From NCBI GenBank assembly GCA_030386875.1, contig CM059580.1:3190838-3254837 (forward strand): DNA of 64,000 nt, in the 5' to 3' direction. Each line of letters starts with the position of its first letter. Within the stretch, counting starts at the first letter, position 1. The notes under the pieces are model-generated. The model was not told where the DNA came from, did not search any database, and saw only the letters and a program-made list of their open reading frames with translations. The stretch comes from Morinoia aosen (lineage: Eukaryota; Arthropoda; Malacostraca; Amphipoda; Talitridae). The position numbers and the translations under genes were made by a program. Below are positions 3,880-54,582 of this stretch, in pieces.

Positions 3880-4325
3880 ACCCTCAGGGGGAATACTGTT
3901 AGGTCCCTCAGCTGTAGATAGGCCTTCGGGACTTGTGTCTACCGTGCCCACTTTGCTTCTTTCAGTTGTCATGCCTTCTTCGCTATCTCTTCTTTGTCTT
4001 TTGTTCCTCTTCCTTCCTGACTTGCTGTTTGTGAGGGGACCTTGTGCATAGATTCCTTCCTTCCTGACTTGCTGTTTGTGTGGGGACCTTGTGCATAGAT
4101 TCCTTCCTTCCTTCCTGACTTGCTGTTTGTGTGGGGACCTTGTGCATAGATTCCTTCCTTCCTGACTTGATGTTTATGTGCACAGGGTGTGGGGACACAC
4201 CTTGTGTATAGATTCCCCGTTCTCTTTACTCCATTCCAAGTGGTGCCTTCATCCTTCCTCCTTTTGAAACGTCTATTTGGAGTTAGGGCAGCCTAAAATA
4301 ACTTATAATATAGTCCTATAACGAA
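3880..4325 (+). repeat. R1 dispersed repeat, variant with internal tandem expansion
   Basis: The copy starts with CCCTCAGGGGGAATACTG and has the variant middle TAGGCCTTCGGGACTTGTGT. It has about three tandem copies of a roughly 46-bp segment built from TTCCTTCCTGACTTGCTG and GGGGACCTTGTGCATAG (4,010-4,200), then the usual R1 3' end with a CCTAAAATAACTTATAAT tail. The same subfamily appears at 32,515-33,200. Confidence 0.8.
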
Positions 4326-5020
4326 AAATTATGAATAACTTATGATTTAGTCGAAGAGTCTAAGCCATTAGGCAAATATTGTGTAGTTTAGAAGCAGGAA
4401 AGTTACCCCTCTAATTGCTAGTTTTCTTTGACGAACAGAAAACGGAAAACCGAAAATTTTATTTCAGATTTGGGTTATTTTTGAGAAATAATTATTTTCG
4501 TATTAGACAATGCGTTTGTAGGAATATTGGATTAGAGACTTAGTAGTAGCGAAGTTATGAAATTCTGGTTTGTGGCGTAGAATTTAAAAAATAGGGTTTG
4601 AAAGTTGAAGAATATATCTGCAAACGGCAAAGTTAAAGTTATGCTAAAGTTACGTTAAAATTATGTATAAGTGATGTAAAAGTTGAAAAAAATTCAATAA
4701 TATCGATGAAGTGACGACATCGACTGACTACAAATCTTTAAATTACTAAAAAAATTAAAATTGGTTCATAAAATATGGTAACGATTTCTTCCAATTAACA
4801 GTTTTAATGGCTTGAACCTCAGGAATTGGCTTCCATTTAACGTTTGTGAAATAACTGATAATTTCAGTTACGAGTGCAAATATTAACAAATTCTTACCCT
4901 CCAAATTTTGTCAATTTGTGAATTTTTGCAATTTTTGGGTCTTGAACTGATTTTTTTTCTTAGATTTGTGAATAATGAAAAAATGAACCATCGGCTGTTG
5001 CTCTCTTGCCTCCATGCAAC
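4326..5020. other. AT-rich spacer, nothing recognised
   Basis: AT-rich and without repeats or plausible coding sequence. I see no feature here. Confidence 0.5.
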
Positions 5021-6844: not shown

Positions 6845-8338
6845 TACAGGGTGTTTCAAAAATACACGGCATAATTTCAGGTATGTATTTCCCACATGTA
6901 GACAATCAAAATAGTTCATTACAACATATGTCCGGAAATGCTTCATTTCCGAGTTATGGCCTTCACAACATTGAAATTCACCGGAACGTTTTTCTTTCCG
7001 CAGGTCGTTGCCGTCAAAGGACACATTAAGAGGGCACTCTGACAGATCATTCCTAGGCGAAGGTTAAATTCAGTGTTGTGTTTGGCGTTCGACTGTGTGT
7101 CATGTACACAAATCAGGAGCTGGCAGAGATGCACTTGATCTACGGTAAGGCAGACGGCAATGCTGCGCTGGCTCGTCGTTTGTACCAGGAGAGGTACCCA
7201 CAGCGACAATGTCCAGATCGGAAGACATTTGTAAGTCTCCATCAGCGTCTGTGCGAGTATGGAAAATTTGACTCTCCTGGATTGGGAAGGGGACGACCAA
7301 GATCTACAACTCCAGAAGAACAGGAGGAGATTCTGGAGATTGTGAACAGAACTCCTTCTATCAGCACACGAAGGTTAGCGTTGCAAGTGAATGTTCCCCA
7401 TACGACTGTCTGGAGACTGCTGAAAGAGTATCAATTGTATCCTTACCATTTGCAACGTGTACAGGCGCTGTCACCAGCAGATTACCCTGCACGAGTTAGG
7501 TACTGTCAGTGGTTCTTGCAGCAATGTGCTGCAAATCCGAACTTTCCTGCCTTAGTATTATTTACAGATGAAGCACAGTTCACACGAGATGGCATAACAA
7601 ATCTCCACAATCAGCATGTATGGGCGTATGAAAACCCAAATGCAACTGTTGTATCTCATCACCAGGTGCGGTTCTCCCTCAACATGTGGGCCGGTATCAT
7701 TGGTGATCGGTTAGTTGGACCCCATGTACTTGTAAACAGACTTACGGGGCAGGCGTACACAAACTTCCTGGAAAACATCATACCTGATGTTTATGACGAC
7801 ACTCCACTGATCGATCGTCAGCACGCTCACTTCTTGCATGACGGCGCTCCTGCACACTTCAGTCGTACGGCTCGCCGGTACTTGGATCGAAGATTTCCTG
7901 ATCGATGGATAGGTAGAGGTGGCCCAATTGCTTGGCCTCCACGCTCACCTGATCTGAACCCTCTCGATTTCTACTTGTGGGGCCATTTAAAATCATTGGT
8001 TTATTCGTCTCCGGTGCCTGATTTGGAATCCCTTCGGAATCGAATTGTGGCACGCTCTGAGGACATACGCAACATTCCTGGAGTGTGGGATCGTGTTCGC
8101 AGGTCAATGAGACATCGATGTGAGGTCTGTATTCAAGCAGGAGGTGGTCATTTTGAACATCTTCTGTAATGGCAACGACCTGCGGAAAGAAAAACGTTCC
8201 GGTGAATTTCAATGTTGTGAAGGCCATAACTCGGAAATGAAGCATTTCCGGACATATGTTGTAATGAACTATTTTGATTGTCTACATGTGGGAAATACAT
8301 ACCTGAAATTATGCCGTGTATTTTTGAAACACCCTGTA
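6845..8338 (+). mobile_element. Intact Tc1/mariner-type transposon with long TIRs
   Basis: Terminal inverted repeats at 6,843-7,012 and 8,171-8,340 (including the flanking TA target duplication) match base for base over 170 bp by eye. Each begins TACAGGGTGTTTC. The interior contains one uninterrupted transposase gene, whose stop codon ends one base before the right inverted repeat. TA duplication, transposase class and TIR position all agree. Perfect TIR identity implies a very recent insertion; autonomy is inferred, not shown. Confidence 0.93.
7102..8169 (+). CDS. Mariner-like transposase, 355 aa, intact
   Basis: This is a cut-and-paste DDE/D-family transposase that would bind its own 170-bp inverted repeats and insert at TA. 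The first ATG (7,102) opens MYTNQELAEM. Residues about 4-50 form an N-terminal helix-turn-helix of the arthropod DUF4817 type. A GRGRPR AT-hook-like linker follows at about residue 64, then a second helix-turn-helix (TRRLALQVNVPHTTVWRLL, about 92-110). The catalytic triad reads FTDEAQF (D156), HDGAPAH (D247) and SPDLNPLD (D284). This leaves 36 residues between the last two acids, against 34 in classical mariners. The length is normal for the superfamily and there is no frameshift or stop. The start could be a few codons upstream only if a GTG were used, which is unlikely in a eukaryote. Confidence 0.93.
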   Translation: MYTNQELAEMHLIYGKADGNAALARRLYQERYPQRQCPDRKTFVSLHQRLCEYGKFDSPGLGRGRPRSTTPEEQEEILEIVNRTPSISTRRLALQVNVPHTTVWRLLKEYQLYPYHLQRVQALSPADYPARVRYCQWFLQQCAANPNFPALVLFTDEAQFTRDGITNLHNQHVWAYENPNATVVSHHQVRFSLNMWAGIIGDRLVGPHVLVNRLTGQAYTNFLENIIPDVYDDTPLIDRQHAHFLHDGAPAHFSRTARRYLDRRFPDRWIGRGGPIAWPPRSPDLNPLDFYLWGHLKSLVYSSPVPDLESLRNRIVARSEDIRNIPGVWDRVRRSMRHRCEVCIQAGGGHFEHLL

Positions 8339-13175: not shown

Positions 13176-14273
13176 AGCGTGTGTTTCTTAGGTATTAATA
13201 AATACGTGAAATATGCTCAATTTTCTGGTCACTATTCCCTAAGTATAATATTTGACCGATATATTTTTTCAGGTAATTATTCCCTATGTATAACATATAG
13301 CCGGTATTTTGTTAACGGTGAAGTTAGTCTTTATTTTCCTTTGACGTATAAAGGTGCCGTACCGCACTAGCAATCTACACTCCATATATATTTATATTTT
13401 CAAATTTATGCAAAATAAGCAAATATTTCCTAATTGGCTTCTTTAATTTAATTCTACTCTACTTTTGCTATTTTTACTAGAATTCTTTACTCATCTTTAT
13501 GACTATAGAATTTTGGTTGTAAGTTTTTTTTTTGACTGTTTTATTTTTTTGAATGGGTAATGACCTTGTAAATACTTGAAATATTTTCTTTTCGAACGTA
13601 GCGTTAGTAAAATCGGTTTCTTTTTTTAAACTTTATACGTCCAGCCAATTTTCCCTCACTTTACCCTCGGATCACCTACACGTATTTCCCTCTTTTTATT
13701 ATTCCCGATTCCTCTAACTTTTCAAGCCCCAAGTCCGTCCCCTCTCTTTATCTTTTTAAAATTGTTCTTCCAGTTTTGATTTTATGTACATTTGTCTCAT
13801 TCCCTTTCGGTTTGTGCCAATAATTACCTAGTTCAGCGAGTGTAGTATTTTCTCAGACTTTTTATTCTTTTATTTTTCTCTGAATTTTTCAATCTTTTGT
13901 TTTCTCCGAATTTTTTATTTTTTATTTTCTCTTAATTTTTTTGTTTTTCATTTTCTCTGAATTTTTTTTTCTCTGAATTTTTTTATTTTTCATTTTCTCC
14001 GAATTTTTTTACTTTTTATTTTTTCTGAAAAATCATACTGGAGGGGAAACTTCTTTATCTTAGGTTCATTTGGGACGTCAAAATGAAGTTTTTGAGCCGA
14101 TTCTTTTAGCACTTACTCCTACATTTCTGATACTAGTTTTATTTGTCAATTCTTGATCCGCCATGTGCATATATTCCTTCATCACCATGTTGACATAAAC
14201 CCAACATCCACTATGTGCATTGGTTCTTTGGTCCCATTTCGACATGACCACAACTTTTGCTTATCTTTTACAG
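13176..14273. other. AT/T-rich presumed intron upstream of the large exon
   Basis: From 13,840 to 14,035 there is a degenerate TTTTCTCTGAATTTTTTATT repeat. The stretch ends with a strong acceptor: a T-rich tract, then CTTATCTTTTACAG at 14,260-14,273. No upstream exon of the same gene is visible in the window. Confidence 0.6.
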
Positions 14274-16679
14274 TCCGGAGAGCGCTGCAGCGTGAACTTG
14301 ATGGGCCGATCCATGCCGTCCCTCCAGTACACCTGCCTCCTGCCGACGTCAGAACCCAAGCTGGTGACCAGAGACTCCCTTCTACAGGAGCGAAGAGGAT
14401 CCAGGTCACGTCGACCGTCCGTGGATTCGTCGAGAAGGTCCTCGATATCCAGCATGCATGGGGACTACAGTTACGGGGGCTCCTACAATCCTCTAGCGGT
14501 CGCCCCATACGAACCCTCGTCTTTGATGTCCATTGATCCAACAACGTACGTGCCCAACTCGGGGTACGCTGCCAATACGGGGTACGTGCCCCCGTATTCG
14601 GATGCCATGTATGCCACCGAAGCTCCGTATGTCCCCGAGCCCGTGTATTCGAATGGCTACGAAGACCCTTCGATGTATGGTGCAGTTGTCCCCTACCAGG
14701 TCCCGGATATTGAACCCATAGGTCCCGTTAAACGGTCTGACACCGTGGGTCGTCTATTGGACAAGTATTGTAATTTTTCCACTGAAAGGGAGTTTTACCA
14801 TCCCCCCACAGCGGCGTACTCCAAGTACGCTCGCAAGTCGGGGGTAGTCCCTGAGTCTGACGAAGACGGTGCGCCGGAGACGAAGTCCTACACTAAAGCC
14901 CGCGCGCGTCGTAGCAGTAAGGACAGGGGAGCGCATGACCGGGATTACCATTCAGGATTTTCGAACATTTACGAAGAAGACGAAGAAGCCTCGTGTTCTC
15001 CGCCCAATAAACGATCTGTGCAGAAGAGTTCCCAAGGTATGTCCCCGGAAGCCATAGACGGTCGGCAAAACTCGGCTGATCCTGAAAGCAGGCAGTCCAG
15101 ATACAAAGGATCTCCTACCTCAAGGAACATCAATGCAGAACCTCTGGAAGCTCGGGCCACGAATGTTCTGTCTAACGTCATGGCTGATCCATTCGCTGTC
15201 AATGCTGGATATTTCAATCTCGGTCGCTTCGATGACCCCGTAGCAGATAGGTATTCCAGAAATGTGACCGCTTACAGCCTTCCTGAAGATTTGGATGCGA
15301 AGTATGGAAGGTCAAGGTATGGGTACCAAAACCCAATTATAGGCGATCCAGCAACCTATGGGATGCAGGGAGTATCGGATTTATTCACCCCAAATTATAA
15401 TAGCAGGTACTCGCGCACTCACACTGATGAACCCTATTATCAACGTGGAATGATGCCTTTTCAAGGCCCCGTGAATGGTGAAAGGGGAGACCAGGGTATG
15501 CATAGAGGAGCTACTTACGAGAATCCAGACGAAGAGCAATATTCCGTCAAGAAGAAGTCGTCTGGTTACGACAGCCCTCTGTCTTCCAGAAAGTTCAATG
15601 GCGCTTCTGAAGAAGGAGGCGAGCAGCCGAACCTCGGCAGTAGAATAAGTAGGTTTTTGAAATCGAAGGACGAGCGGGAAAGTGGTGGACGCAAACCTGC
15701 CAGGTACGGAAGAACATCATCCCGATATTCCCCTGAGAAGTATAAGCCCCGACTAAACTCTAGTGAGAGACCACAGTACGGCCACAACGATCTTGAACTC
15801 GAGGATGAATATGCCTCTCCCAGATCTCGTGCCCCGCAGAAAACGTACGGGAGTGGCCGTTCCAAAAGGACCATGACCACTCCCGGACTGTCATCTTACT
15901 TGGACGGAGAAGATGCGGCATCTTCACCTGTTCGGTACACATCTAGAGCCAGTGCGGTTCGAGACCCCGTCTCGCGTCTAGAGGGGGAGAACTCATACGT
16001 AGGGAGACCGTATGGTAGGCCTGGCAGAAGGCCAGATGCTGGTAGACTGAGTTCTTCTCGAGACAACGCGTCTCCGATGTACGGACAATCTTTGCGTCAG
16101 AAGTACGGGGTATCTCCCGATCGCGGAGGTGAACCGGAATCGCTACGAAAGAGATACGGCGTATCCCCTGATGCCGGTCGTGAGCCTGAATCGCTACGAA
16201 AGAGATACGGCGTGTCTCCAAGCCACGGCGGTGAATCTGAATCTCTACGAAAAAGATCCGGAGTATCTCCTGGAGGCGAACCCGAATCCTTCCGGAAGAG
16301 ATACGGAGTATCTCCTGGAGGCGAACCCGAATCCTTCCGGAAGAGATACGGAGTATCTCCTGGTGGAGAACCCGAATCCTTCCGCAAGAGATACGGTGTG
16401 TCTCCCGATCGCGGCGACACGTTGGGTTACAACCCAAGGAGTTCTGCCATCAGAACGGGACCTGCCCCTAACCCTTACAACGAACTCATTCCTGACGAAG
16501 ACAGACCGTGGCGTCGACACACGTCGGTCACCCGAAGAAAGCCTTTCGTTCTGCCAACCTACGATGACGACGACGGCGACGACTCGTCTTACAATCCTAA
16601 GCAGACAGAGCGGCAGCTCGCAGCTAGGATTGCTAAGCAGTATTTAGGCAACGGAGTGCAGGATGACGACGAGGAATAA
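14274..16679 (+). CDS. 3'-terminal coding exon of an unidentified Ser/Arg/Tyr-rich protein (801 codons)
   Basis: A single long frame without tandem-array character starts in phase 0 after the acceptor CTTTTACAG and ends at TAA 16,677-16,679. Numbering from the exon start, residues about 40-62 are Arg/Ser-rich (RRGSRSRRPSVDSSRRSSIS). Residues about 65-150 are Tyr/Pro-rich. The centre is charged and disordered with many SP, RxxS and RY motifs. Residues about 607-710 hold seven tandem 15-17-residue repeats (KRYGVSPGGEPESFR type). The C-terminus is acidic (DDDDGDD near 764, DDDEE at the end). I see no folded domain, signal peptide or membrane segment. Balanced codon use and lack of stops over 2.4 kb argue for a real protein. 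The composition would suit a cytoskeletal or scaffold protein. It could be an upstream or alternative exon of the unc-89 gene 10 kb downstream, since a weak phase-0 donor (GGA|GTGCAG) precedes the stop, but I cannot show this. Confidence 0.8.
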   Translation, partial: SGERCSVNLMGRSMPSLQYTCLLPTSEPKLVTRDSLLQERRGSRSRRPSVDSSRRSSISSMHGDYSYGGSYNPLAVAPYEPSSLMSIDPTTYVPNSGYAANTGYVPPYSDAMYATEAPYVPEPVYSNGYEDPSMYGAVVPYQVPDIEPIGPVKRSDTVGRLLDKYCNFSTEREFYHPPTAAYSKYARKSGVVPESDEDGAPETKSYTKARARRSSKDRGAHDRDYHSGFSNIYEEDEEASCSPPNKRSVQKSSQGMSPEAIDGRQNSADPESRQSRYKGSPTSRNINAEPLEARATNVLSNVMADPFAVNAGYFNLGRFDDPVADRYSRNVTAYSLPEDLDAKYGRSRYGYQNPIIGDPATYGMQGVSDLFTPNYNSRYSRTHTDEPYYQRGMMPFQGPVNGERGDQGMHRGATYENPDEEQYSVKKKSSGYDSPLSSRKFNGASEEGGEQPNLGSRISRFLKSKDERESGGRKPARYGRTSSRYSPEKYKPRLNSSERPQYGHNDLELEDEYASPRSRAPQKTYGSGRSKRTMTTPGLSSYLDGEDAASSPVRYTSRASAVRDPVSRLEGENSYVGRPYGRPGRRPDAGRLSSSRDNASPMYGQSLRQKYGVSPDRGGEPESLRKRYGVSPDAGREPESLRKRYGVSPSHGGESESLRKRSGVSPGGEPESFRKRYGVSPGGEPESFRKRYGVSPGGEPESFRKRYGVSPDRGDTLGYNPRSSAIRTGPAPNPYNELIPDEDRPWRRHTSVTRRKPFVLPTYDDDDGDDSSYNPKQTERQLAARIAKQYLGNGVQDDDEE
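16089..16405 (+). repeat. Coding tandem repeat inside the large exon
   Basis: Seven in-frame units encode RYGVSP followed by GGEPES plus LRK or FRK. The first three units are 17 codons and the last ones 15 codons. The 45-bp units at 16,257-16,385 are nearly identical in DNA, so they duplicated recently. All changes keep the frame, unlike the non-coding arrays around the gene. Confidence 0.9.
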
Positions 16680-27719: not shown

Positions 27720-27875
27720 GTCGCTGAGGCTGGACGAGGAGGCGGAGGCGCGGCTGCTGGACAACACGGCCGCCAAGCACAAGATGGCAATTAGGCCTAA
27801 AAAAACTAGGCCTGACTCGCGCTCCGCTGCTGCCTCCCCCGCACCGCCCCCCGACCCCGCACCCTACGACGAAGA
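27720..27875 (+). CDS. unc-89: unc-89 exon B: charged linker or cassette exon, symmetric phase 2-2
   Basis: The acceptor CCGTTTCAG is followed by one base completing a codon, then SLRLDEEAEARLLDNTAAKH, KMAIRPKKTRPDSR and a Pro/Ala tail ending PAPYDEE. The donor GAAGA|GTGCGT at 27,876 leaves phase 2. Both ends are phase 2, so the 156-nt exon can be included or skipped without changing frame. Its position, between the two halves of the SH3 domain, is odd: included, it would insert 52 residues into the domain. The sequence looks like a helical acidic/basic linker and would suit the region between SH3 and DH better. The phase would equally fit between exons D and E. Assignment to this gene is by position, phase and GC content; I recognise no domain. 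Confidence 0.55.
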
Positions 27876-29802: not shown

Positions 29803-29876
29803 GTACCTCCTGCAGTCTCTGGACGGCAAGACGAGCGTGTGGCTGCCGAAGTATGTGGTGACCCTCGATACTTCCG
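29803..29876 (+). CDS. unc-89: unc-89 exon C: second half of SH3
   Basis: The exon starts in phase 2 and encodes YLLQSLDGKTSVWLPKYV then VTLDTS. This is the C-terminal half of an SH3 domain: the strand before the DGK turn, the conserved W-L-P-x-x-Y ligand-groove motif and the last strand. Joined directly to exon A, it gives GDAFVLL-TTSAAAPP-YLLQSLDG with normal SH3 length (about 57 residues). The exon ends ACT TCC G with the strong donor GTGAGT (29,877), phase 1, matching exon D. The 21-bp array that follows repeats the last seven exonic bases and the donor many times, so the exact exon end used in vivo could vary. The GW of typical SH3 domains is VW here. Confidence 0.75.
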
Positions 29877-30617
29877 GTGAGTGGCGCCCACTTCCGGTGA
29901 GTGGCCCCACACTTCCGGTGAGTGGCCCCCCACTTCCGGTGAGTGGCCCCCCACTTCCGGTGAGTGGCCCTCCACTTCCGGTGAGTGGCCCCCCACTTCC
30001 GGTGAGTGGTCCCCCACTTCCGGTGAGTGGTCCCCCACTTCCGGTGAGTGACCCTCGATACTTCCGGTGAGTGGCGCCCACTTCCGGTGAGTGGCCCCCA
30101 CTTCCGGTGAGTGGCCCCCCACTTCCGGTGAGTGGCCCCCCACTTCCGGTGAGTGGCCCCCCACTTCCGGTGAGTGGCCCCCCACTTCCGGTGAGTGCCC
30201 CCCACTTCCGGTGAGTGGCCCTCCACTTCCGGTGAGTGGCCCTCCACTTCTGGTGAGTGGCCCCCCACTTCCGGTGAGTGGCCCCCCACTTCCGGTGAGT
30301 GGCCCCCCACTTCCGGTGAGTGGCCCCCCACTTCCGGTGAGTGTCCCCCCACTTCCGGTGAGTGGCCCTCCACTTCCGGTGAGTGGCCCCCCACTTCCGG
30401 TGAGTGGCCCCCCACTTCCGGTGAGTGGCCCCCCACTTCCGGTGAGTGGCCCTCCACTTCCGGTGAGTGGCCCTCCACTTCCGGTGAGTGGCCCTCCACT
30501 TCCGGTGAGTGGCCCTCCACTTCCGGTGAGTGGCCCTCCACTTCCGGTGAGTGGCCCTCCACTTCCGGTGAGTGGCCCTCCACTTCCGGTGAGTGGCCCT
30601 CCACTTCCGGTGAGTGG
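29870..30617. repeat. 21-bp splice-donor minisatellite, about 35 copies
   Basis: The unit is ACTTCCGGTGAGTGGCCCCC plus C. Its first seven bases are the end of exon C and the next eight are the intron start, so every unit holds a consensus 5' splice site (CCG|GTGAGT). At 30,048-30,070 a longer stretch of exon C (GTGACCCTCGATACTTCCG plus donor) reappears. This shows that a segment of about 190 bp including exon sequence was itself duplicated. Because 21 is a multiple of 3, use of a later donor can add TSGEWPP heptads. Confidence 0.95.
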
Positions 30618-30860
30618 CAAGGGTTCTTCCGACTCCATCTAAATAGTTTTTATGAATAAGATTGACGTTTATAAATCTAATTTTTCTTCCCCCCGCGGCT
30701 TAGCAAGGTAATCTGAGTTATACTGTTATGGTTCTTGTTATTTTTGAATGAAGATTTCTTCATGTTATTGTTAGTGAATATGCATTAGTGCACGTATATG
30801 TGATCCCAGAAAATGCATGTTTAAATGAATTTTTGCTTGAGCCTGAGCTACCTCAACATG
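30618..30860. other. Intron sequence, nothing recognised
   Basis: No repeat or coding signal. Confidence 0.5.
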
Positions 30861-31470: not shown

Positions 31471-31663
31471 CGCCCCCACCGCCGCCCCCACCGCCCCCCG
31501 CCCCCAAGCGCCCTGCGGAGGACGAGGTGGGGCCGCTGCCCCCCGGGGGGGACGCCCTCAGGGCTGCCATGCTGGCCGAGATCCGCAGTTTTCAGCCCAA
31601 GAAGAAGAGGAGCAGTTCAAAACTCGGGCCCAGCCCTGAGGAGGAGGCTAGGACCAAGCGCAG
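31471..31663 (+). CDS. unc-89: unc-89 exon D: proline-rich and basic linker between SH3 and DH
   Basis: The acceptor ACATGTTCCCCAG (ends 31,470) opens phase 1. With the G left by exon C it reads A, then PPPPPPPPP, APKRPAEDEVGPLPPGGD, ALRAAMLAEIRSFQPKKKR and SSSKLGPSPEEEARTKR. ALRAAMLAEIRSF resembles a short WH2-like helix found in actin-binding proteins, but I would not call it on this alone. The donor CGCAG|GTGGGG (31,664) leaves phase 2, matching exon E. GC is high, and the poly-proline at the exon start mirrors exon A. It is most likely a flexible linker with possible SH3- or actin-ligand properties. The gene is assigned through phase continuity with C and E. Confidence 0.65.
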
Positions 31664-37309: not shown

Positions 37310-38062
37310 GCACCTTGACCCCCTTATTTACCACCCTGTCCACCACCCTGTCCACCACCCTATCCACCACCCTATCCACCACCCTATCCACCACCCTATC
37401 CAACACCCTATCCACCACCCTATCCAACACCCTATCCAACACCCTATCCACTCTATTCAGCACCTTGACCCCCTTATTTACCACCCTGTCCACCACCCTG
37501 TCCACCACCCTATCCACCACCCTATCCACCACCCTATCCACCACCCTATCCAACACCCTATCCAACACCCTATCCAACACCCTATCCAACACCCTATCCA
37601 ACACCCTATCCAACACCCTATCCAACACCCTATCCAACACCCTATCCAACACCCTATCCAACACCCTATCCACCACCTTATTCATCTTATCCCCCACACT
37701 ATCTACCATTCTATCCACCCTATCCACTCTATTCAGCACCTTGACCCCATTATTTACCACCCTATCCACCACCCTATCCACCACCCTATCCACCACCCTA
37801 TCCACCACCCTATCCACCACCCTATCCACCACCCTATCCACCACCCTATCCACCACCCTATCCACCACCCTATCCAACACCCTATCCAACACCCTATCCA
37901 ACACCCTATCCAACACCCTATCCAACACCCTATCCACCACCTTATTCATCCTATCCCCCACACTATCTACCATTCTATCCACCCTATCCACTCTATTCAG
38001 CACCTTGACCCCATTATTTACCACCCTATCCACTACTCTATCCACCCTCTCCACTCTCTCCA
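37310..38062. repeat. 12-bp CACCACCCTATC repeat abutting the exon E acceptor
   Basis: Units CCACCACCCTAT and CCAACACCCTAT, with three larger blocks each headed by CTCTATTCAGCACCTTGACC (37,300, 37,447 and 37,727). The last units provide the pyrimidine tract and AG of the exon E acceptor (CTCTCTCCACCAG). The in-frame run-on into exon E is a consequence of the 12-bp period. Confidence 0.95.
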
Positions 38063-38066
38063 CCAG

Positions 38067-38237
38067 CGCCACAATCAAGGAGCTGCTGGAAACGGAGGAG
38101 GAGCTCATACGCGACCTCCACTACGCGGTGGATAACTACTACCGGCACATGGACCTCACTTCCACCCCCCGCCACATCCGCGACCACAAGGAGATAATTT
38201 TCTCCAACTTCAACTTCTTCCCCGACTTCCATAAGAA
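38067..38237 (+). CDS. unc-89: unc-89 exon E: start of the Dbl-homology (RhoGEF) domain
   Basis: Phase 2 at both ends. It encodes ATIKELLETEEELIRDLHYA, VDNYYRHMD, then a loop and PRHIRDHKEIIFSNF-NFFPDFHK. This is the first helix (conserved region 1) of a DH domain, where the ELLxTEEExIxDL pattern is diagnostic, followed by the IFxNxxxxxxFHxN segment. DH domains catalyse GDP-GTP exchange on Rho-family GTPases. In invertebrate Unc-89/obscurin the domain follows the SH3. The donor AAGAA|GTGGGT (38,238) leaves AA, and with C from exon F this makes Asn, giving FHKNV as the family requires. The CRE of a 41-bp array starts four bases into the intron. Confidence 0.86.
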
Positions 38238-39553
38238 GTGGGTGGCGTGTGCATAGGGTTCCATGCTCCCTATGTAACGTTGGTGGCGTGTGCATAGGGT
38301 TCCATGCTCTCTATGTAACGTTGGTGGCGTATGCATAGGGTTCCATGCTCCCTATGTAACGTTGGTGGCGTGTGCATAGGGTTCCATGCTCCCTATGTAA
38401 CGTTGGTGGCGTGTGCATAGGGTTCCATGCTCCCTATGTAACGTTGGTGGCGTGTGCATAGGGTTCCATGCTCCCTATGTAACGTTGGTGGCGTGTGCAT
38501 AGGGTTCCATGCTCCCTATGTAACGTTGGTGGCGTGTGCATAGGGTTCCATGCTCCCTATGTAACGTTGGTGGCGTGTGCATAGGGTTCCATGCTCCCTA
38601 TGTAACGTTGGTGGCGTGTGCATAGGGTTCCATGCTCCCTATGTAACGTTGGTGGCGTGTGCATAGGGTTCCATGCTCCCTATGTAACGTTGGTGGCGTG
38701 TGCATAGGGTTCCATGCTCCCTATGTAACGTTGGTGGCGTGTGCATAGGGTTCCATGCTCCCTATGTAACGTTGGTGGCGTGTGCATAGGGTTCCATGCT
38801 CCCTATGTAACGTTGGTGGCGTGTGCATAGGGTTCCATGCTCCCTATGTAACGTTGGTGGCGTGTGCATAGGGTTCCATGCTCCCTATGTAACGTTGGTG
38901 GCGTGTGCATAGGGTTCCATGCTCCCTATGTAACGTTGGTGGCGTGTGCATAGGGTTCCATGCTCCCTATGTAACGTTGGTGGCGTGTGCATAGGGTTCC
39001 ATGCTCCCTATGTAACGTTGGTGGCGTGTGCATAGGGTTCCATGCTCCCTATGTAACGTTGGTGGCGTGTGCATAGGGTTCCATGCTCCCTATGTAACGT
39101 TGGTGGCGTGTGCATAGGGTTCCATGCTCCCTATGTAACGTTGGTGGCGTGTGCATAGGGTTCCATGCTCCCTATGTAACGTTGGTGGCGTGTGCATAGG
39201 GTTCCATGCTCCCTATGTAACGTTGGTGACGTGTGCATAGGGTTCCATGCTCCCTATGTAACGTTGGTGGCGTGTGCATAGGGTTCCATGCTCCCTATGT
39301 AACGTTGGTGGCGTGTGCATAGGGTTCCATGCTCCCTATGTTACGTTGGGGGCGTGTGCATAGGGTTCCATGCTCCCTATGTAACGTTGGTGGCGTGTGC
39401 ATAGGGTTCCATGCTCCCTATGTAACGTTGGTGGCGTGTGCATAGGGTTCCATGCTCCCTATGTAACGTTGGTGGCGTGTGCATAGGGTTCCATGCTCCC
39501 TATGTAACGTTGGTGGCGTGTGCATAGGGTTCCATGCTCCCTATGTAATGTTG
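38238..39553. repeat. 41-bp minisatellite beginning at the exon E donor, about 32 copies
   Basis: The unit is GTGGCGTGTGCATAGGGTTC, CATGCTCCCTATGTAACGTT, G. The first unit starts at intron position 5. Units are almost identical (single changes near 38,330, 39,229 and 39,341), so the array is young. Confidence 0.97.
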
Positions 39554-39756
39554 GTGGCGGGCCCTAAGGGTTAAATAAAGGCTCCCTATGTAAAGGGTAG
39601 CGCCTTCCAATGCTTCTCGGAATTCCATAAGAAGTTGGTGTGGGGATACACCTTGTGCATAGATTCCACTTTTCATAACGGTCCTTTTTCTTCGCTATTT
39701 CGAGGGTGGCGCAAAAAGAACGCATGGATTTGACCGTCCTTTTTGCACCAGCCTGT
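39554..39756. other. Decayed exon E/donor duplicate and spacer
   Basis: At about 39,624-39,640 TTCCATAAGAAGTTGGTG repeats the end of exon E plus its donor (TTCCATAAGAAGTGGGTG at 38,227). The array therefore appears flanked by two copies of the exon border. The downstream GTGTGGGGATACACCTTGTG resembles R1. Confidence 0.6.
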
Positions 39757-41588: not shown

Positions 41589-41684
41589 GAACGAGACTTC
41601 GACCAACACGCCGAGTACTGCAGCAGCGAGCCGCTAGCTCAAGAATTTCTTGAGAACAACGCGCCCGTCAGGGAATATTTTGAG
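41589..41684 (+). CDS. unc-89: unc-89 exon G: DH domain, third segment
   Basis: Phase 0 at both ends, 32 codons: ERDFDQHAEYCSSEPLAQEF, LENNAPVREYFE. It continues TFLRL from exon F as TFLRLERDFDQHAEY, the conserved pattern in obscurin-type DH domains (xxLExDFExHxxY). The donor GAG|GTGAGT at 41,685 is strong. No later exon of this gene is visible in the remaining 22.3 kb, so the next intron is very long or the following exons are beyond the right edge. A 30-bp array begins inside the donor consensus. Confidence 0.85.
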
Positions 41685-51914: not shown

Positions 51915-54582
51915 TGCACCGTACACACACCTACAACACACACACCTGTAACGCACACACCTGCAACACACACACCTGCAACACACACACCTGCAACACA
52001 CACCTGCAACACACACACCACACACCTGCAACACACTCACCACACACCAGCAACACACACACCACACACCTGCAACACACCACACACCAGCAACACACAC
52101 ACCACACACCTGCAACACACACACCACACACCTGCAACACACCACACACCAGCAACACACACACCACACACCTGCAACACACACACCACACACCTGCAAC
52201 ACACACCTGCACACACACACCACACACCTGCACACACACACCACACACCTGCAACACACTCACCACACACCAGCAACACACTCACCACACACCAGCAACA
52301 CACACCACACACCTGCGACACACACACCACACACCTGCGACACACGCACCACACACCTGCGACACACGCACCACACACCTGCGACACACACACCACACAC
52401 CTGCGACACACGCACCACACACCTGCAACACACACACCACACACCTGCAACACACACATGACACACCTGCAACACACGCACCACACACCTGCAACACACG
52501 CACACCACACACCTGCAACACACGCACCACACACCTGTAACACATGCACCACACACCTGCAACACACGCACCACACACCTGCAACACACGTACCACACAC
52601 CTGCAACACACGCACCACACCTGAAACACACACCACACACCTGCAACACACACACCACACACCTGCAACACACACACCACACACCTGCAACACACACACC
52701 ACACACCTGCAACACACGCACCACACACCTGCAACACACGCACCACACACCTGCAACACACGCACCACACACCTGCAACACACACCACACACCTGCAACA
52801 CACACACCACACACCTGCAACACACACACCACACACCTGCAACACACGCACCACACACCTGCAACACACACACCACACACCTGCAACACACGCACCACAC
52901 ACCTGCAACATACGCACACCACACACCTGCAACACACACACCACACACCTGCAACACACGCACCACACACCTGTAACACATGCACCACACACCTGCAACA
53001 CACACACCACACACCTGCAACACACACACCACACACCTGCAACACACGCACCACACACCTGCAACACACGCACCACACACCTGCAACACACGCACCACAC
53101 ACCTGCAACACACACACCACACACCTGCAACACACACACCACACACCTGCAACACACACACCACACACCTGCAACACACGCACACCACACACCTGCAACA
53201 CACACACCACACACCTGCAACACACGCACCACACACCTGTAACACATGCACCACACACCTGCAACACACGCACCACACACCTGCAACACACGCACCACAC
53301 ACCTGCAACACACGCACCACACACCTGCAACACACGCGCCACACACCTGCAACACACGCGCCACACACCTGCAACACACGCACCACACACCTGCAACACA
53401 CGCACCACACACCTGCAACACACACACACACACCTGCAACACACGCACCACACACCTGCAACACACGCACCACACACCTGCAACACACGCACCACACACC
53501 TGCAACACACGCGCCACACACCTGCAACACACGCACCACACACCTGTAACACATGCACCACACACCTGCAACACACGCACCACACACCTGCAACACACGC
53601 ACCACACACCTGCAACACACGCACCACACACCTGCAACACACGCGCCACACACCTGCAACACACGCACCACACACCTGCAACACACACCACACACCTGCA
53701 ACACACACCACACACCTGCAACACACGCACCACACACACCTGCAACACACACCACACACCTGCAACACACGCACCACACCTGCAACACACACACCACACA
53801 CACCTGCAACACACACCTGCAACACACACCTGCAACACACACACCACACACACCTGCAACACACACCACACACCTGCAACACACGCACCACACCTGCAAC
53901 ACACACCACACACACCTGCAACACACACCTGCAACACACACACCACACACACCTGCAACACACACCACACACCTGCAACACACACCACACACCTGCAACA
54001 CACCCACCACACACACCTGCAACACACGCACCACACACTTGCAACACACACACCACACACACCTGCAACACACACACCACACACCTGCAACACGCACCAC
54101 ACACTTGCAACACACGCACCACACACCTGCAACACACGCACCACACACCTGCAACACACACACCACACACCTGCAACACACGCACCACACACACCTGCAA
54201 CACACACACCACACACCTGCAACACACACACCACACACTTGCAACACACACACCACACACCTGCAACACACACACCACACACCTGCAACACACACACACA
54301 CACACCAGCAACACACGCACCACACACCTGCAACACACACCACACACCTGCAACACACACACCACACACACCTGCAACACACACACCACACACACCTGCA
54401 ACACACCCACCACACACACCTGCAACACACACACCACACACACCTGCAACACACCCACCACACACACCTGCAACACACGCACCACACACCTGCAACACAC
54501 ACACCACACACACCAGCAACACACACACCACACACCTGCAACACACGCACCACACACCTGCAACACACACACACACACACAA
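51915..54582. repeat. 22-bp minisatellite (ACACCTGCAACACACACACC), 2.7 kb
   Basis: About 120 units of ACACCTGCAACACACGCACC plus AC, varying as ACGCACC/ACACACC/ACACC. Near 53,680-54,000 units shorten to 18-20 bp. Frames of up to 873 codons on both strands, including a Cys/Val-rich one, are products of a stop-free CA/TG repeat and not genes. Confidence 0.97.

Follow-up and report, generated by a model that had tools for sequence, protein, structure and literature searches.

A 36-copy minisatellite spanning the 5' splice site of exon C in an unc-89/obscurin-like gene of the amphipod Morinoia aosen

Minisatellites that lie across exon-intron boundaries are called mirages in amphioxus, where they reportedly leave splicing undisturbed (PMC3087553). 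They have been found in Adh3, in the globin genes BflGb6 and BflGb9 and in TnC, with similar repeats in PGBD5 (excerpts of PMC3087553 and PMC3902484), and the excerpted text of PMC3902484 states that the Adh and TnC mirages yield no aberrant mRNAs. In humans, the IFI6 minisatellite provides splice donors, and its downstream units are used, giving three mRNA species (PMC4526556, in excerpt). A tandem duplication across an intron-exon boundary (PMC4974935) and human tandem repeats at exon-intron boundaries (PMC2812944) have also been reported, as far as the excerpts of these two papers go. Among the matches listed in the literature, no arthropod case of such a junction minisatellite was found by title.

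The window analysed here is a stretch of 64,000 nt of Morinoia aosen DNA (C25:3,190,838-3,254,837), from a genome assembled into 29 contigs (1.99 Gb). At the end of exon C of an unc-89/obscurin-like gene, it harbours an array that resembles the amphioxus mirages, which are tandem units straddling an exon-intron boundary, each partly exonic and partly intronic and many of them carrying splice signals (excerpts of PMC3087553 and PMC3902484). Each unit spans the boundary, with about seven exonic bases and a donor (19 exonic bases in one copy), and an origin at its own locus, a trait that we read into the excerpted description of mirages, is found as well, with 30/30 exact matches of the unit core inside the array. 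By its anatomy in the sequence, the exon C array is a mirage. An earlier note on this DNA had held that donor satellites of this kind had no named class, a view that the amphioxus name (PMC3087553) and the donor-supplying minisatellite of human IFI6 (PMC4526556), both in excerpt, overturn. The array differs from amphioxus mirages in its arthropod rather than cephalochordate host, in its 36 copies and in being one of nine cases in a single gene. What is new is that at least four junction copies stand at 9/41 donors of one gene and at 0/42 acceptors, whereas duplication of both boundaries is reported in the excerpts on amphioxus. Splicing neutrality and length instability, also somatic, are likewise reported there, whereas the present array is known from the sequence of a single assembly. 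As in IFI6, the repeat units match the 5' splice site consensus (36/36 GGTGAGT), their donor role here being predicted; unlike in IFI6, where downstream units are used, 0/35 extra donors are predicted to give an open product. Tandem duplication or repetition across an exon-intron boundary is also shared with the cases of PMC4974935 and PMC2812944, as excerpted, but no new intron is evident here, and the copied junctions remain within one existing intron.

A single array was delimited by TRF at 29,870-30,618 (period 21, 35.8 copies, 95% matches, 749 bp). Where about 35 tandem consensus donors had been claimed after exon C, we counted 36 GGTGAGT motifs from 29,876 to 30,609, including the original junction, which confirms the array, and the GT is still intact in 36/36. 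The features on which the analysis relies are the following.

29803..29876, + strand: exon C of the unc-89/obscurin-like gene, reading YLLQSLDGKTSVWLPKYVVTLDTS (open frame, AG/GT borders, phase fitting exon D, which itself fits exon E)
29870..30618, + strand: junction minisatellite, unit ACTTCCG joined to GTGAGTGGCCCCCC, 36 donors (TRF, donor count, unit map; exact core at one locus)
29877..29882, + strand: donor 1 (GTGAGT), the sole donor among 36 giving an open frame through exons D and E
30048..30098, + strand: repeat of the final 19 exon C bases (30,048-30,066) plus 32 intron bases, exactly identical to 29,858-29,908
30068..30070, + strand: TGA ending the exon C frame upon extension into the array or intron retention (splice-frame computation)
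31471..31663, + strand: exon D, proline-rich (phase agrees with exons C and E)
38067..38237, + strand: exon E, start of the DH (RhoGEF) domain (phase; DH likeness)
41589..41684, + strand: exon F, a further part of the DH domain (DH likeness)

In the commonest unit, ACTTCCG, the final seven bases of exon C, precedes GTGAGTGGCCCCCC; units start with ACTTCCGGTGAGT in 35/36 cases and with ACTTCTGGTGAGT in one. The 21-bp periodicity reported in the earlier note holds for 30 of the 35 donor-to-donor spacings, but four are of 20 bp, including the first one (donor 1 to donor 2), and one is of 23 bp, which is relevant to the frame. The order of unit variants is CEAABADDFCGAAAAHBBIAAAJBAAABBBBBBBBK; the 3' end is the most uniform part of the array, which suggests that recent growth may have occurred there. 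The exon C tail GTGACCCTCGATACTTCCG (29,858-29,876) is repeated exactly at 30,048-30,066 together with 32 identical intron bases (51 in total), bearing out the claim that exonic DNA took part in the duplication. At the join between array and exon tail, the array GTGAGTG abuts the exon GTGACCC, with a short GTG in common, as seen by eye. A single duplication of the entire 190 bp that separate the two exon tails is not supported, as 101/190 positions match without gaps and only the 51 bases are securely duplicated. Pairing with the 5' end of U1 was scored for seven of the 36 donors and is equal among them (-10.2 to -10.5 kcal/mol); the remaining GTs inside exon C score -7.1, for the GT at the first base of the exon, or weaker.

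The call of exon C rests on its frame, splice signals and place in the gene, and no homologous protein scored for exons B-D in the homologue search. Exons E and F match the DH domains of Trio and Kalirin, and the model probably lacks a piece between them. Joined exons correspond to the Pfam entries RhoGEF (E 6.5e-07) and SOS1_NGEF_PH (E 5.8e-12) and to the Trio DH-PH pair (1.4e-15). The downstream DNA (pieces L009-L034) harbours the rest of the DH domain, then a PH domain and six Ig-motif exons, all on the same strand, and more Ig, Fn3 and kinase exons were seen by eye further along that strand, a second kinase by eye only. Pfam searches of joined downstream pieces identified I-set in 3/3 of the pieces given, fn3 and Pkinase, and the best solved-structure match of the first kinase is Obscurin 8ak2 (E 7e-68; 1.6e-48 for twitchin). 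This succession of DH-PH, Ig and Fn3 domains and obscurin-like kinase supports the assignment of the array-carrying gene to unc-89/obscurin, as the earlier note had proposed. Upstream, exons B0 and C together had no Pfam match up to E 10 and no match to an SH3 chain; an SH3 likeness was seen by eye, and position before the DH-PH pair is the one argument for the SH3 label of exons B and C. A WH2-like stretch in exon D scores well below the Pfam cut-off (E 0.11, 12.6 bits vs 23.1). Exons B1 and B0 are tentative because the donors of both are weak; the putative exon B1 (27,720-27,875), in what is expected to be an unc-89 gene, just reaches the family threshold for DUF4592 (27.1 vs 27 bits). Further upstream, an 826-aa terminal-exon ORF (14,199-16,676) contains an in-frame coding minisatellite with 51- and 45-bp units (16,104-16,405). 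It has one homologue, P0001, 41% identical; as the ORF ends in a stop and this homologue aligns to its end, it represents another gene or an alternative end. A 370-aa open ORF (7,057-8,166), with a helix-turn-helix match above the cut-off (DUF4817) and DDE_3 just below its own, is probably a transposase.

Each of the 36 donors was joined in silico to exons D and E, and the frame was read. Donor 1 gives an open frame. Donors 2-9 shift the frame by +2, and translation would end in exon E; for donor 10 it would end in exon D, and donors 11-36 run into the TGA at 30,068 within the exon extension, which intron retention meets as well. Donor 11 alone keeps the frame with exon D relative to donor 1, yet the same TGA lies in its extension. 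None of the 35 extra donors is therefore productive, i.e., open and in frame.

The unit core ACTTCCGGTGAGTGGC has 30 exact matches in the 1.99-Gb genome, all inside the exon C array, with 0 for the control pattern; since every exact match falls there, the array arose in place at the exon C/intron junction. A dispersed-repeat origin is rejected for exact core copies, and the unit map together with this single-locus distribution upholds the view that the array was built from the junction itself. Three tandem GGTGAGT motifs gave 15,226 + 14,164 matches genome-wide against 16,294 + 15,332 for the reversed control, with no excess over a control that is itself contaminated, TGAGTGG sitting in GGTGAGTGG.

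Donor-like sites number 171 in the 64,000-nt window against 52.6 expected, the excess coming mostly from an unrelated minus-strand array. This large array (51,923-54,580) holds 113 donor-like sites of the CAGGTGTGT type, away from any placed exon. High-scoring donors on either strand were found in 3 of the 65 merged tandem arrays of the window, namely the exon C array (36), the array at 51,923-54,580 (113) and a single-site array. As the second of these lies away from any placed exon, donor-like arrays can arise without one, and the distinguishing mark of the exon C array is the exon tail within its units.

We surveyed the 321 kb that begin with the window and end at C25:3,512,300, and listed 41 exons of the unc-89/obscurin gene, found mostly by eye as GC-rich open frames mostly outside arrays, by the Ig motif and by domain likeness. 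The donor retained was the best GT within 90 nt of the coding motif according to a weight matrix, arrays being disregarded, and junction copies were defined as downstream copies of the 16-mer spanning the exon/intron junction. Donors in a TRF array or within 15 bp of one amount to 31/41 (24/33 when just the donors scoring 2 or more are counted), against 108/1500 random and 67/600 GC-rich anchors treated by the same procedure in the locus. At least four junction copies follow 9/41 donors, against 27/1500 random and 17/600 GC-rich anchors (Fisher 1.5e-7 and 1e-5, respectively). Besides exon C with 35 copies, the donors concerned are outside the window, with coordinates given as last exon bases.

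L019:1813: K3, 8 junction copies
L024:7928: K10, 9 junction copies
L025:1255: Ig3, 24 junction copies
L025:4228: Ig4, 8 junction copies
L027:2902: K15, 5 junction copies
L027:5627: K17, 11 junction copies
L028:3079: K18, 18 junction copies
L030:8027: K22, 38 junction copies

Two of the nine array donors, K10 and Ig3, have scores below 2. Units are unrelated among the eight further arrays. In the copies examined (at most 12 per array, nine arrays), the exon-side identity is mostly 8 to 51 nt, with a few shorter. Only 7/156 extra donors over the nine arrays are productive (K18 has six of them, K15 the other), so the frame is not kept. After the Ig4 exon (L025, about 4194-4862), each 88-bp unit has 21 bases derived from the exon, along with a pyrimidine-rich CAG and a GTGGGAC donor, and could in principle be a candidate 7-residue microexon. 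A 41-bp array with 32 copies (38,241-39,559) begins 3 nt past the exon E donor; it repeats the first 16 intron bases 31 times, without an exon tail.

The acceptors of the same gene (n=42, 16 placed by hand and 26 by score) have at least four junction copies in 0/42 cases, at least two in 1/42, and an array within 15 bp in 13/42; donors and acceptors differ with p values of 0.001 and 6e-5. Exon E is preceded, at a distance of 2 nt, by arrays built from a pyrimidine-rich 12-bp unit and from related units (37,330-38,064), which apparently provide its polypyrimidine tract.

Taken with a probability of roughly 60%, our preferred explanation is that a short segment running from the last part of exon C into its intron was tandemly duplicated in place and grew to 36 copies, much as in mirages. 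The copies would all be equally strong donors, as far as scored, but the first one would make the protein, and the later copies would sit within the intron as mostly silent passengers. After a duplication spanning a donor, the added donor would lie downstream of the original; provided that the original is preferred, its copy becomes part of the intron and does little harm, which would be why copies persist. At acceptors, the first AG tends to be taken, so that a duplication placing a copy ahead of the old acceptor would be harmful, which fits the 9/41 donors and 0/42 acceptors. The single-locus core, the exon tail in the array, the absence of productive extra donors, their scarcity over the nine arrays, the recurrence at donors only, the reported splicing neutrality of amphioxus mirages and the high repeat cover of the locus all speak for silent passengers, and from this pattern we infer that donor 1 would be the donor used and its copies close to neutral. 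Other observations point the other way. All 36 donors keep their GT, with no decay to mark disuse, although homogenisation would also explain this. In vitro, the intron-proximal donor is favoured when U1 sits on all sites, a rule that would predict the use of late donors; Hodson 2012 is said to concern surplus U1. Donor 1 seemed structurally freer than the copies at one setting, a candidate distinction that we dropped, as it ranks 7, 14, 2, 2, 2, 6 and 1 of 36 over seven settings and is thus not consistently the most accessible. Finally, amphioxus has acceptor mirages, according to the excerpt of PMC3087553.

A possible but doubtful alternative is that donors themselves nucleate minisatellites in this gene, through a mutational process tied to donors that would keep duplicating the exon end with its donor; that copies survive at donors and not at acceptors would then reveal, as a natural test, that in vivo the first among many equal donors prevails. 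One cause might be structures that arise when the G-rich strand downstream of donors is transcribed. From 20 to 420 nt after donors, the coding strand is G-rich (skew +0.33, positive in 33/41), and from 40 to 420 nt before acceptors it is C-rich (skew -0.19, negative in 26/42), against +0.03 in random windows; the flanking arrays therefore resemble the adjoining splice signals. The slip-prone form GTGNGTG is present in 17/41 donors.

It is unlikely that mere crowding accounts for the pattern, with minisatellites growing across the locus until they meet an exon and donors playing no special starting role. Tandem repeats do occupy roughly half the sequence in both the window and the 321-kb stretch, and arrays end near acceptors too (13/42 within 15 bp). 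As a rough control, since its exons differ in conservation and repeat density, we used kinase donors elsewhere in the genome: from 135 matches to the family, 40 ending inside the domain were chosen and 28 examined, with 501 nt each. There, where repeats are sparse, just 2/28 donors lie within 15 bp of an array, as crowding would have it, 0/28 have at least four junction copies and one has at least two; the corresponding values for unc-89 donors in equal windows are 31/41, 8/41 and 14/41 (p 1.4e-8, 0.018 and 0.0025). Mean tandem-repeat cover of the 501-nt windows is 11% for kinase exons elsewhere, 60% for unc-89 donors and 49% for 150 random windows of the locus. Within this kinase sample, junction arrays characterise this locus or gene and not genes in general. 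Inside the locus itself, the excess of arrays at donors over random and GC-rich anchors argues against crowding, which alone does not predict exon-tail units at donors yet not at acceptors.

Quite unlikely is a regulated sink, in which donors 2-36 would give frameshifted, degraded transcripts, or the row of donors would hold U1, setting splicing or expression. The 36 intact donors are consistent with it, as is the fact that every extra donor meets a stop in the extension, in exon D or in exon E, and the RNA of the array has strong structure (five consensus units fold at -50.8 kcal/mol, 200 shuffled versions at -36.5 +/- 3.2). Arrays of unrelated units at eight further donors of the gene nevertheless point to a common mutational cause, and the minus-strand array shows that 113 donor-like sites can accumulate away from any placed exon.

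We consider it very unlikely that the array or its length is an assembly artefact: an amphioxus mirage was misassembled in the draft genome (PMC3087553, in excerpt), but the 749-bp array has interspersed variant units, and 1.99 Gb in only 29 contigs suggests long reads. Least of all can donor choice be thought to add TSGEWPP heptads to the protein, as the earlier note had it: 30/35 spacings are multiples of three, but the 20-bp first interval breaks the frame and ends the TSGEWPP reading, the other exceptions are of 20 or 23 bp and 0/35 extra donors are productive, so that such isoforms are refuted for the present allele, barring other alleles in which the frame is restored.

A row of 36 equal donors behind a single exon represents a natural experiment on how the spliceosome chooses among identical 5' splice sites, a question usually posed with two or three. 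The cluster of junction minisatellites at the donors only of one gene makes it possible to tell mutation bias apart from selection acting on duplicated splice sites, and the exon C array extends mirages, described in amphioxus, to an arthropod.
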